The notes under the pieces are model-generated. The model worked only from the letters and a program-made list of their open reading frames with translations. It was not told where the DNA came from and did not search any database. The position numbers were made by a program, and so were the translations under genes. DNA of 64,000 bases from Oscillatoria sp. FACHB-1407 (GTDB lineage: Bacteria; Cyanobacteriota; Cyanobacteriia; Elainellales; Elainellaceae), in contig NZ_JACJSA010000006.1 in NCBI RefSeq assembly GCF_014697545.1, positions 1 through 64,000 of the forward strand, in the 5' to 3' direction. Below are positions 13,716 through 63,757 of this stretch, piece by piece (positions within the stretch are counted from its first letter, which is position 1; every line of letters begins with the position of its first letter).

Positions 13716-13838
13716 TGTGAGGGCAATAGAGGAGTAGGGGAGTAGAGGGGCGAACTATGAAGGAGTAAAGGTGAATAGGGTTCAGGGCGAAGTCTGCGGT
13801 TTGAACCACCCAAATCCTGATCCTGAACTCGGCTTTGT

Positions 13839-22456: not shown

Positions 22457-22471
22457 ATCGAGTCGTTTCAT

Positions 22472-22514
22472 AACCGCGAATTCATTCGCCAGGCTCTTAA
22501 ACCGAACTGATGTT
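22472..22514 (-). repeat. Fragment of MITE-like element D1
   Basis: The reverse complement (from TCAGTTCGGTTTAAGAGCC through GGCGAATGAATTCGCGG) matches the first ~40 bp of the complete copies at 29835 and 62518; the rest is missing. Confidence 0.8.
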
Positions 22515-22515
22515 A

Positions 22516-29769: not shown

Positions 29770-29834
29770 TTGTATAGGGAACAGACCATGCAGAAGAGAG
29801 AATCGGTTTGCTCTGCCCGTCTTGCATCTCGGTA

Positions 29835-29995
29835 ACGTCAGTTCGGTTGAAGAGCCCGGCGAATGAATTCGCGGCTACTAGAGCGAAGTCCGCCGACGCG
29901 AACTCCGGAAAATGCAGGATTTGACGAACCGACGCGATCGATTTTGCTCCGATAGCGGCGGTTTTAACCGCCGAAATCTTATCCTGAATTCACGT
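29835..29995 (+). mobile_element. MITE-like element D1, copy 1, with 6-bp target duplication
   Basis: 161 bp non-coding element with ends ACGTCAGTTC and GAATTCACGT (imperfect inverted repeats). It is flanked by the perfect direct repeat TCGGTA (29829-29834 and 29996-30001). Internal hairpins include GCGAAT/ATTCGC and GGCGGTT/AACCGCC. About 85-90% identical by eye to copy 2 at 62518. Confidence 0.85.
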
Positions 29996-30094
29996 TCGGT
30001 AAGACGTTGTGCGATCGCTATCAGCCCCTCATGAACTCCCTTTCATCTCTTATTCTTCATCCTTATTTCTTTCTTCTTTTTTCCCTCTTCCCTC
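29996..30094. other. Spacer between D1 copy 1 and the oxidoreductase gene
   Basis: About 100 bases with T/C-rich stretches (TCTTTTTTCCCTC) near the right end, which on the minus strand are A/G-rich; no gene. Confidence 0.4.
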
Positions 30095-62235: not shown

Positions 62236-62371
62236 TGGTTGGTGGTTAATGGTCAATGGTCAATGGTTGGTGGTTGGTGGTTAATGGTCAATGGTCAATG
62301 GTTAATGGTTAATGGTTAATGGTTAATGGTCAATGCTCAATGGTTAGTGGTCAGTGGTTAATGGTCAATGG
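62236..62371. repeat. Heptanucleotide repeat array (GGTTAAT/GGTCAAT)
   Basis: About 135 bp of 7-bp units, GGTTAAT, GGTCAAT, GGTTGGT, in mixed order; related to the array at 25230. Confidence 0.9.
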
Positions 62372-62517
62372 GGTGGTGTTCCAAACCTGTTGATAACCTC
62401 TGTAAGACCCCCTGTAGTCCCCCTTGGTAAGGGGGACGGCGACAGCCAGGGGTTAGTGGCAACAGATCTGAAACACTACCGGTCAATGGTTTACGAATGA
62501 CTAATGACTGTTAACTA

Positions 62518-62679
62518 ACGTCAGTTCGGTTTAAGAGCCCGGCGAATGAATTCGCGGCTACTAGAGCGAAGTCCACCGACGCGGACTACCGAAAATCAAG
62601 GTTTGACGAACCGACGCAGGTCGGTTTTGCTCTGATAGCGGCGGTTTTAACCGCCGAAATCCTGATCCCGAATTCACGT
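62518..62679 (+). mobile_element. MITE-like element D1, copy 2, with 6-bp target duplication
   Basis: 162 bp, ends ACGTCAGTTC and GAATTCACGT, flanked by the direct repeat TAACTA (62512-62517 and 62680-62685). Same internal hairpins as copy 1, with the additional fully paired AGTCC-ACCGACGC-GGACT. Confidence 0.85.
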
Positions 62680-62715
62680 TAACTAATGCCTCATACCCCC
62701 TTCTATCTCATCCGT

Positions 62716-63600
62716 ATGAAAAGCTTATTTGCGTCGTTTCGCTGGTTGTCTCTGAGTGTAGTGGGGTTGCTGCTCGTTGCCTATGGCGGGATTTGTCTCT
62801 ATCTCTATTTTCGACAGACCCGCTTCATTTTCTTTCCATCCCCTTACATTGAGACGACTCCTGACGAGTTTGGCATGGCGTATGAGGATGTGTGGTTGTC
62901 TGTGGGCAATGGCAATCCCCCTGCCCAGCTACATAGCTGGTGGATTCCGGCGCAATCAACGTCACGAGGTGTTGTGTTATATCTGCATGGCAACGGTGCC
63001 AATATCGGTGCCAATGTCGCTCAGGCAGAGCGATTTCATCGGTTAGGGCTATCGGTGTTGTTGATCGACTATCGTGGCTATGGCAAGAGCACAGGCGGTT
63101 TTCCCTCGGAGGTGAAGGTCTATGAAGATGCAGCGATCGCCTGGAATTATCTGACGCAGGAACGGCAGATTCCGCCGCAACAGATTTTGCTGTACGGGCA
63201 TTCCCTGGGAGGGGCGATCGCCACTCAATTAGCCATTCAGCAGCCCGATGCAGCCGGGTTGATTGTGCAGTGTTCGTTCACCTCCATTCGGGAGATGACC
63301 AACCGTATGCCGCCTTATCGTCTGTTACCAATCGATCTCGTGTTGACTCAACGGTTTGACTCAATTCACAAAGTGCCCCGTTTACAAATGCCAGTGTTGT
63401 TTATTCATGGCATAGCAGATACGGAAGTCCCGGCGGATATGAGTCAGAGCTTGTTTGATGCGGCTCCTGAACCGAAACGACTCTGGCTAGTCCCTGGGGC
63501 AGGGCATAACAATGTGGGAGATACCGCAGGAGCAGAATACTTGCGAGTGGTGGAGCAATTCGTGCAGGAAACGATCCCTAATCCAGCAGTGATTGATTAA
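62716..63600 (+). CDS. Membrane-anchored alpha/beta hydrolase (BEM46/ABHD13-like)
   Basis: A 294-residue serine hydrolase. One N-terminal helix (~10-32, LSLSVVGLLLVAYGGICLYLYF) followed by FRQTRFIFFPSPYIETTPDEFGMAYEDVWL, then the oxyanion HGNGANIG (~93), the DYRGYGKSTGG loop, nucleophile GHSLGG (~164-169), acid D in IHGIADTEVP and His in GAGHNNV. The family includes ABHD13/BEM46 thioesterases and lipases; substrate unknown. ATG 62716 is used so that the helix is close to the start. The gene sits between inverted copies of the D1 element (62518 and 63601). Confidence 0.88.
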   Translation: MKSLFASFRWLSLSVVGLLLVAYGGICLYLYFRQTRFIFFPSPYIETTPDEFGMAYEDVWLSVGNGNPPAQLHSWWIPAQSTSRGVVLYLHGNGANIGANVAQAERFHRLGLSVLLIDYRGYGKSTGGFPSEVKVYEDAAIAWNYLTQERQIPPQQILLYGHSLGGAIATQLAIQQPDAAGLIVQCSFTSIREMTNRMPPYRLLPIDLVLTQRFDSIHKVPRLQMPVLFIHGIADTEVPADMSQSLFDAAPEPKRLWLVPGAGHNNVGDTAGAEYLRVVEQFVQETIPNPAVID

Positions 63601-63757
63601 TGTGAATTCGGGATCAGGATTTTGGCGGTTGAAACCGCTGCTGTCGGCACAAAACCGACCTGTATCAGTTCGTCTAACCCTTGATTTTTGATAGCCTGCG
63701 ACGGCAGATTTGGTTCCGGTCGCCGTGAATTCATTTGCCAGGGTCTTAAACTTGGTC
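63601..63757 (-). mobile_element. Degenerate D1 element, inverted copy 3
   Basis: The reverse complement can be aligned along nearly the whole element: ...GGCAAATGAATTCACGG..., CAGGTCGGTTTTG, AGCAGCGGTTTCAACCGCC, ATCCTGATCCCGAATTCACA. It is more diverged than copies 1 and 2 and lost the terminal GT. Begins directly after the hydrolase stop codon. Confidence 0.8.

Follow-up and report, generated by a model that had tools for sequence, protein, structure and literature searches.

The window, that is, the whole stretch of 64,000 nucleotides analysed here, holds two copies of a short repeated element, and the question raised by this locus is what such an element is, what moved it and where its interior came from. 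We believe that it is very probably a chimeric MITE, in which the two ends of an IS982-family insertion sequence surround a REPIN-like derivative of a Y1 transposon. We hold this because IS982 ends enclose an interior that is not derived from IS982 and whose halves are found in inverted orientation on either side of Y1 transposase genes. The window genome (G000) is an 8.1 Mb draft assembly of 66 contigs. The copies in the window, with their terminal inverted repeats (TIRs), their target-site duplications and the bit scores of R1, our covariance model of the core, are as follows.

13792-13830, plus strand: fragment of the element's right end, a weak match (20 bits)
22471-22515, minus strand: fragment of the left end of the element, 91-93% identity over 45 bp
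29829-29834, no strand: target-site duplication TCGGTA on the left of copy 1, read from the sequence
29835-29995, plus strand: copy 1 of the MITE, 161 bp, IS982-type ends around a four-hairpin core
29835-29851, plus strand: left TIR of copy 1, ACGTCAGTTCGGTTGAA; its counterpart is the right end of IS982 elements (GGGTTAA type)
29852-29976, plus strand: core of copy 1, very probably the REPIN-like paired ends of a Y1 transposon; the R1 match runs from 29852 to 29980 (123.5 bits)
29859-29872, plus strand: hairpin H1, GCGAAT-GA-ATTCGC
29887-29904, plus strand: hairpin H2 (AGTCCG...CGRACT), within the three-way junction, with one mismatch in copy 1
29927-29943, plus strand: hairpin H3, consensus AACCGAC...GTCGGTT, degenerate in copy 1
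29958-29971, plus strand: hairpin H4, GCGGTT-TT-AACCGC
29979-29995, minus strand: right TIR of copy 1, reading ACGTGAATTCAGGATAA on the minus strand; its counterpart is the IS982 left end, GGGATAAG type
29996-30001, no strand: target-site duplication TCGGTA on the right of copy 1, read from the sequence
62512-62517, no strand: target-site duplication TAACTA on the left of copy 2, read from the sequence
62518-62679, plus strand: copy 2 of the MITE, 162 bp, with its core at 62535-62663 (R1, 137.7 bits)
62680-62685, no strand: target-site duplication TAACTA on the right of copy 2, read from the sequence
63599-63751, minus strand: third copy, old and degenerate, with its core at 63616-63745 (99.4 bits)

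Read directly, the two copies of about 161 bp, their ends (ACGTCAGTTC...GAATTCACGT in both) and their flanking hexamers are exactly as the first-pass annotation had described them, and its view that the element is non-coding is borne out by the lack of any coding capacity. The copies are 91% identical across 166 aligned positions. Directly upstream of copy 2 lies a minisatellite-like tract of TGGTCAATGGT-type units (approximately 62236-62373), and similar tracts occur near other copies too.

The first-pass annotation had argued, from different hexamers outside identical ends, that the two copies were inserted independently and that the element is mobile, and the rest of the genome supports this. 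A 24-nt pattern of the left end, allowed up to three mismatches, matched 121 times in the window genome and not once when reversed, and an 18-nt end pattern matched 380 times against 26 for its control. Searching the same genome with copy 1 gave at least 45 matches (40 scored of 325 candidates), 40 of them full-length or nearly so, whereas an exact-match scan for the left end in named genomes, from which the window genome's own records were possibly left out, returned none. Loci were drawn from 100 of the 121 left ends (72 of them newly extracted) and a profile was built from 65 distinct sequences; with copies scoring below 85 in nhmmer or having truncated ends excluded, 70 distinct full-length copies remained. 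An exact flanking repeat is present in 41 of these (6 bp in 21, 7 bp in 18 and 8 bp in two), a further 16 have a 6-7 bp repeat with one mismatch and 13 have neither, so that 29 of the 70 are without a perfect duplication. When the left flank of one copy was set against the right flank of another, at least 6 bp agreed in 122 of 4,830 pairs (2.5%). Disagreement between the flanking words in most other copies would have spoken against mobility, and it did not occur. What needs amending is the length of the duplication, which is 6 bp in both window copies but may also be 7 or 8 bp across the family. Most exact repeats have the form T-N4-5-A, with an initial T in 39 and a final A in all 41 (TAAATA, TAATTA, TAAATTA and TAACTTA, for example). 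Since the ACGT ends adjoin this flanking T and A, the boundary of the element is arguable: it may be placed at ACGT with repeats of 6-7 bp, or at AACGTT with repeats of 4-5 bp.

Uninterrupted homologous sites, which we sought among the G000 loci already extracted and which lie inside other dispersed repeats of that genome, hold the target word once. One comparison spans both flanks (L020 against L323, 80% over 159 columns), and in three others the similarity stops about 20 bp beyond the junction on one of the two sides (L020 against L083, 95% over 101 columns; L093 against L106, 91% over 107; L023 against L083, 88% over 103). At an identical word of one dispersed repeat, L020 and L025 are inserted in one orientation and L023 in the other; that target word was therefore hit at least twice. 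With most copies at 161-163 bp and TIRs of 17-18 bp, the family has the attributes of a MITE, being shorter than 300 bp, non-coding, bounded by TIRs and present in many copies, with target-site duplications and empty sites. Its amplification in G000 looks like an old burst, because median identity to the consensus is 93.9% and none of the 70 copies has a neighbour at 98% or above. About ten copies (L071, L050, L067, L070, L076, L078, L091, L108, L111 and L117) belong to a larger unit of 241-268 bp in which the core's junction loop holds an extra insert of some 100 bp; in L071 this insert is bounded by TACTAG on both sides. In four of the nine readable copies this unit has its own 6-bp T....A duplication and has therefore moved as a whole.

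A transposase with the same terminal repeat, which the first-pass annotation had proposed to look for, does exist, of the IS982 family and in other cyanobacteria, but none was found in the window genome. In another genus of the same family (G021), a related element 72-74% identical to ours has kept its size and ends, and the same genome carries one IS982-family element of 969 bp with ends AACGTGAGTACGGGATAA and AACGTCAGTACGGGTTAA and TAGCTA on both flanks. Its transposase, encoded at L150:1381-2259, is uninterrupted, 292 aa long, and scores 260.6 bits against NCBIfam NF033520 (cut-off 130). A search with this protein matched in 32 of 60 genomes and returned 20 loci, of which nine were inspected; at six (G021, G026, G035, G048, G015 and G019) both ends are present, 965-981 bp apart, and these ends are the ends of the MITE. 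The transposase frame is uninterrupted in the first four and broken in G015 and G019. By eye, two of the six have a perfect duplication, TAGCTA of 6 bp in G021 and AATACTA of 7 bp in G048, and the other four have none. Also by eye, contigs of G071 and G032 break inside a repeated element that has a matching end and the start of a similar ORF; the partial transposase of G071 contains two stop codons and reaches 65.4 bits, below the family cut-off. The ends of these IS982 elements are asymmetric, GGGATAAG on one side and GGGTTAAG (GGKTTAA type) on the other, and the MITE has one of each kind with the order swapped, the pattern to be expected if it descends from genuine IS982 ends. A second IS982-type subfamily in G000, with slightly different ends, also contains the core.

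In G000 itself, neither the family model nor the protein (E up to 0.001 and 0.01) matched an IS982 transposase. Since the assembly is a draft of 66 contigs, it is possible that a copy has been lost from it. As in an IS982-derived MITE, the TIR is shared with a transposase-encoding IS982 element and the duplications are alike in length and pattern; the other two attributes of such a MITE, a parental transposase in the same genome and an interior taken from the parental insertion sequence, were not found. Indeed, when the interior of the MITE consensus was compared with the six two-ended IS982 loci, the best blastn E-value was 0.93 and R1 had no match.

The interior is instead a folded module of 130 nt with four hairpins. 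From 24 diverse sequences, RNAalifold independently predicted hairpins H1 and H4 and, between them, a three-way junction that is closed by a stem and contains H2 and H3; in this alignment 10 of the 31 pairs have changed on both sides. In the structure as we defined it, 93.5% of cells pair against 88.2 +/- 0.5 in shuffles, the double-changed cells number 51 against 16.5 +/- 4.4, and the covariation score is 0.243 against 0.148 +/- 0.009; each of these values was reached by none of 500 shuffles. When the structure was slid along the alignment, 27-45% of cells paired. Two of the five measures are unremarkable: the count of double-changed pairs (10) was reached in 40 of the 500 shuffles, and that of pair types in 479. 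Of 242 genomes of the class, R1 found the core in 59, with strict filters and no more than 14 matches scored per genome. The first-pass annotation had concluded that the element is mobile and hence no conserved RNA; that opposition does not hold, as the interior is a conserved folded module with compensatory changes. Such changes can also arise in hairpin DNA by templated repair, without selection. The core module also grows as tandem arrays: in G196 (locus L162, C1:4144247-4145200) at least six copies stand in tandem at a spacing of about 165 bp.

The Y1 (IS200-like) transposase genes suggest where this module came from. R1 finds half-cores on both sides of such genes in G000 and in G055, the G000 gene (C8, L193/L337; about 1480-1896 in L193) having inverted half-modules at its borders; at the Y1 gene of G032 (L195) its matches on both sides are weaker and R2, our half-core model, finds nothing, and at that of G021 (L196) a core or unit lies on one side only. 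R2 was trained on cores from MITEs and on naked cores, Y1 loci being kept out of it, and was run on 30 loci that encode homologues of the Y1 protein of G055. All eight close homologues (187-318 bits; G055, G154, G143, G073, G159, G041, G118 and G000) have a plus-strand unit before the gene and a minus-strand unit after it, and all eight genomes are among the 59 in which the core was found. Among the 22 more distant homologues, at most one has units on both sides, and weakly. In at least six core-positive genomes (G012, G016, G037, G038, G043 and G044), no Y1 homologue was detected at E-values up to 1e-12.

In a scan of named genomes, in which 80 of 204 relatives were kept, a unit pair was sought within 200 bp of the gene, and the R2 counts were tallied from a hand-copied table, inverted units flank the gene on both sides at 46 of the 80 loci, and at 35 of the best 40, with Nostoc, Planktothrix, Fischerella and Lyngbya among the 46. 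A unit is present on one side at 13 loci and no qualifying unit at 21; the opposite arrangement occurs at 11 of the 80, mostly where there are several units. The transposases have the motifs that PMC6006769 gives for TnpA-Y1 subclass 1.2 (DH[IV]H, WQ and Y---Q--HH), to which they are assigned by motif. Next to units, Y---Q--HH is present in 41 of the 46 and DHVH in 40, but Y---Q--HH is also present at all 21 loci without a qualifying unit and therefore marks the subclass, not the units. Among more remote loci, double-hairpin ends were also seen on both sides of Y1 genes in MAGs of Chloroflexi (including Thermoflexales), Armatimonadetes and Gemmatimonadetes and in one MAG each of Omnitrophota and Myxococcales (L395, L397, L398, L402-L409, L424 and L426), so that this type of Y1 transposon is not confined to Cyanobacteria.

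The core resembles a REPIN in that two palindromic units are set in inverted orientation, copies are many and the units flank a Y1 gene. However, two Y1 proteins score 83.8 and 77.2 bits against the IS200 model NF033573 (cut-off 55) and only 28.9 and 31.5 bits against the RAYT model NF047646, below its cut-off of 80. Because they pass the former and fail the latter, we call the core REPIN-like by way of analogy and not of membership. YxxNP-type genes resembling RAYTs (L199, L200 and L203) were considered as a partner and rejected, as R2 has no match near them.

Could the fold itself be what is selected? In that case the interior would be a structured RNA or RNA regulator, of the ERIC or YPAL kind, mobilised by chance and maintained for its folded transcript. 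The conserved fold, the compensatory changes and the presence of G-U pairs would all suit such a role, as would the position of the copies mostly outside long ORFs, since an open frame of at least 120 codons is interrupted by just one of the 41 insertions that have exact flanking repeats. Given that no Rfam family reaches its threshold (no match in the window at the gathering threshold, a best score for the element of 15.2 bits against 35, and likewise nothing credible at a permissive E-value), that the core is nearly self-complementary and R1 scores it on both strands, which would be unexpected of an RNA gene read from one strand, and that the half-units are inverted at Y1 genes as DNA ends would be, we consider this explanation unlikely. 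Since the core is best read as paired Y1/IS200-like ends, its hairpins are most likely DNA transposition signals.

The surroundings of the core in other genomes bear on the same question. We hand-chose 109 core loci in 30 genomes among the listed R1 matches (30 as loci and 79 fetched). At 84 of the 109, listed shell ends do not stand on both sides, and in G071, 13 of 14 core loci match no listed shell end at all. The remaining 25 have matching inverted ends on both sides, of five kinds: IS982-type (seven loci, all in G021), GAGG[AT]TGTTT-type (11), CTG[AG]TTGACTGAC-type (three), CTTCCTGCA-type (two) and CAGCAATTCCAAATTCAA-type (two). Patterns B to E were written after the data had been viewed, so these counts are descriptive, and the reversed flanks, which gave 0 of 109, are their sole control. 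Some shelled cores recur as units (L251, L254 and L255; L256 and L257; L278 and L279), and in G000, by eye, a shell of the third kind encloses the core at L049, and at L109 the enclosing shell is degenerate and resembles the second. The idea that shells B and C are defined by the core was rejected, as 20 pairs of their TIRs (in G157, G126 and G196) hold other interiors: none contains a convincing core and one has a partial match of 21 bits. These pairs include separate MITE families, one of 176-177 bp with CTGATTGACTGACAAAA ends (L440-L447, G157), in which four of eight copies have a 9-bp duplication by eye, and others of 155-185 bp with GAGGWTGTTTKAAAAGT ends (L448-L459, G126 and G196), with matching TAA or TTA flanks in 12 of 12 by eye and several unrelated GC-rich hairpin interiors.

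An ordinary IS982 MITE, whose interior would be internal IS982 DNA that has drifted and whose palindromes would be incidental, might be supposed from the IS982-like ends and duplications and from the IS982-derived MITEs known in Cardinium (PMC9769881). The lack of a significant blastn or R1 match between the interior and the six IS982 loci, the occurrence of the core without IS982 ends in many genomes, with G071 as an example, and its place beside Y1 transposase genes make this very improbable. We can give hardly any credence to the proposal that a Y1 transposase moved the whole unit and that the direct repeats reflect target preference, for while the core is associated with Y1 genes and a single target type (T....A) would produce some chance agreement, Y1/IS200 insertion makes no target duplication, mismatched flanks agree at the low rate given above, the hexamer or heptamer is present once at the empty sites, and both the TIR and the duplication match those of IS982 elements.

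Based on these observations, we propose the following model for the chimeric MITE. The outer 17-18 bp TIRs would represent the two ends, left and right, of an insertion sequence of the IS982 family. A DDE transposase of the IS982 type, supplied in trans, would cut at ACGT...ACGT, and the excised unit would be pasted into AT-rich TNNNN(N)A sites, of which 6-7 bp would be duplicated. The interior would be a non-autonomous derivative of a Y1 element (IS200-like, transposing as a single strand) from which the transposase gene is absent, its two double-hairpin ends, H1 with H2 and H3 with H4, being joined back to back. Such a module may have been inserted between two IS982 ends on a single occasion that predates the split between the related G000 and G021 families, and the IS982 transposase would then have amplified the hybrid. 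In G000 this amplification has presumably either stopped or depends on a transposase that is missing from the assembly.

A bolder extension, which we offer tentatively and think somewhat doubtful, is that the Y1 core is a recurrent, portable cargo, was captured independently by at least three to five unrelated shells across Cyanobacteria (IS982-, GAGGATGTTTGAAAAGT- and CTGATTGACTGACAAAA-type, and others) and still responds to Y1 transposase, so that it would spread by both DDE and Y1 activities. If this were true, the half-modules would supply the cognate ends that the orphan Y1 subclass 1.2 has so far lacked.

The cyanobacterial MITE Nezha is reportedly short, TIR-bearing and multi-copy like the present element, and the small cyanobacterial repeats said to be covered by Elhai et al. 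in 2008 may include parts of the core. IS982-derived MITEs are already known: MITECca01 of Cardinium, about 240 bp long, is described as derived from a parental IS982 and as coexisting with intact copies of it (PMC9769881). Such elements and ours alike are short and non-coding, with IS982-type TIRs, a high copy number and a parent recognised by its ends. In contrast to MITECca01, the present element encloses a conserved hairpin core of foreign origin, and its assembly yielded no IS982 transposase.

GTAG families in cyanobacteria and REPINs in Nostoc punctiforme have likewise been reported (PMC3116915; PMC3733652), the latter source also citing Nezha. The RAYT-associated REPINs and BIMEs described there share with our core an inverted palindromic pair, a GTAG-like tag, many copies and units flanking a Y1 gene. 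In our data, tags counted by script in the right unit of the 109 loci are most commonly GTAG (37) and ATAG (9), the corresponding count for the left unit being unreliable. In contrast to those REPINs, the present core has two hairpins per end and a conserved spacer in the form of a three-way junction, its transposase passes the IS200 model and not the RAYT model, and the doublet sits inside an IS982 TIR shell. One or more of the published families GTAG-12, -15 and -16 may coincide in sequence with our core. A MITE made of IS982 ends around a Y1-derived doublet may be new, as we found no precedent for one in the open-licence literature.

TnpA-Y1 subclass 1.2 is listed as lacking REPs and, in general, terminal secondary structures (PMC6006769). 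The transposases described here agree with that subclass in their signature motifs, their cyanobacterial hosts and their low copy number in most of the genomes listed. They differ from it in the double-hairpin inverted ends that flank the gene at more than half of the named-genome loci, although roughly a quarter of those motif-bearing loci are without a unit. Thus, a tangible candidate is now available for the DNA ends of this published orphan subclass of single-strand transposases, and an origin can be assigned to a hairpin repeat that occurs in roughly one in four of the searched genomes. Finally, a MITE is usually accounted for as the shortened copy of a single parent transposon, whereas the present one, amplified to more than 100 copies, seems to be a hybrid of two systems that are unrelated in mechanism.
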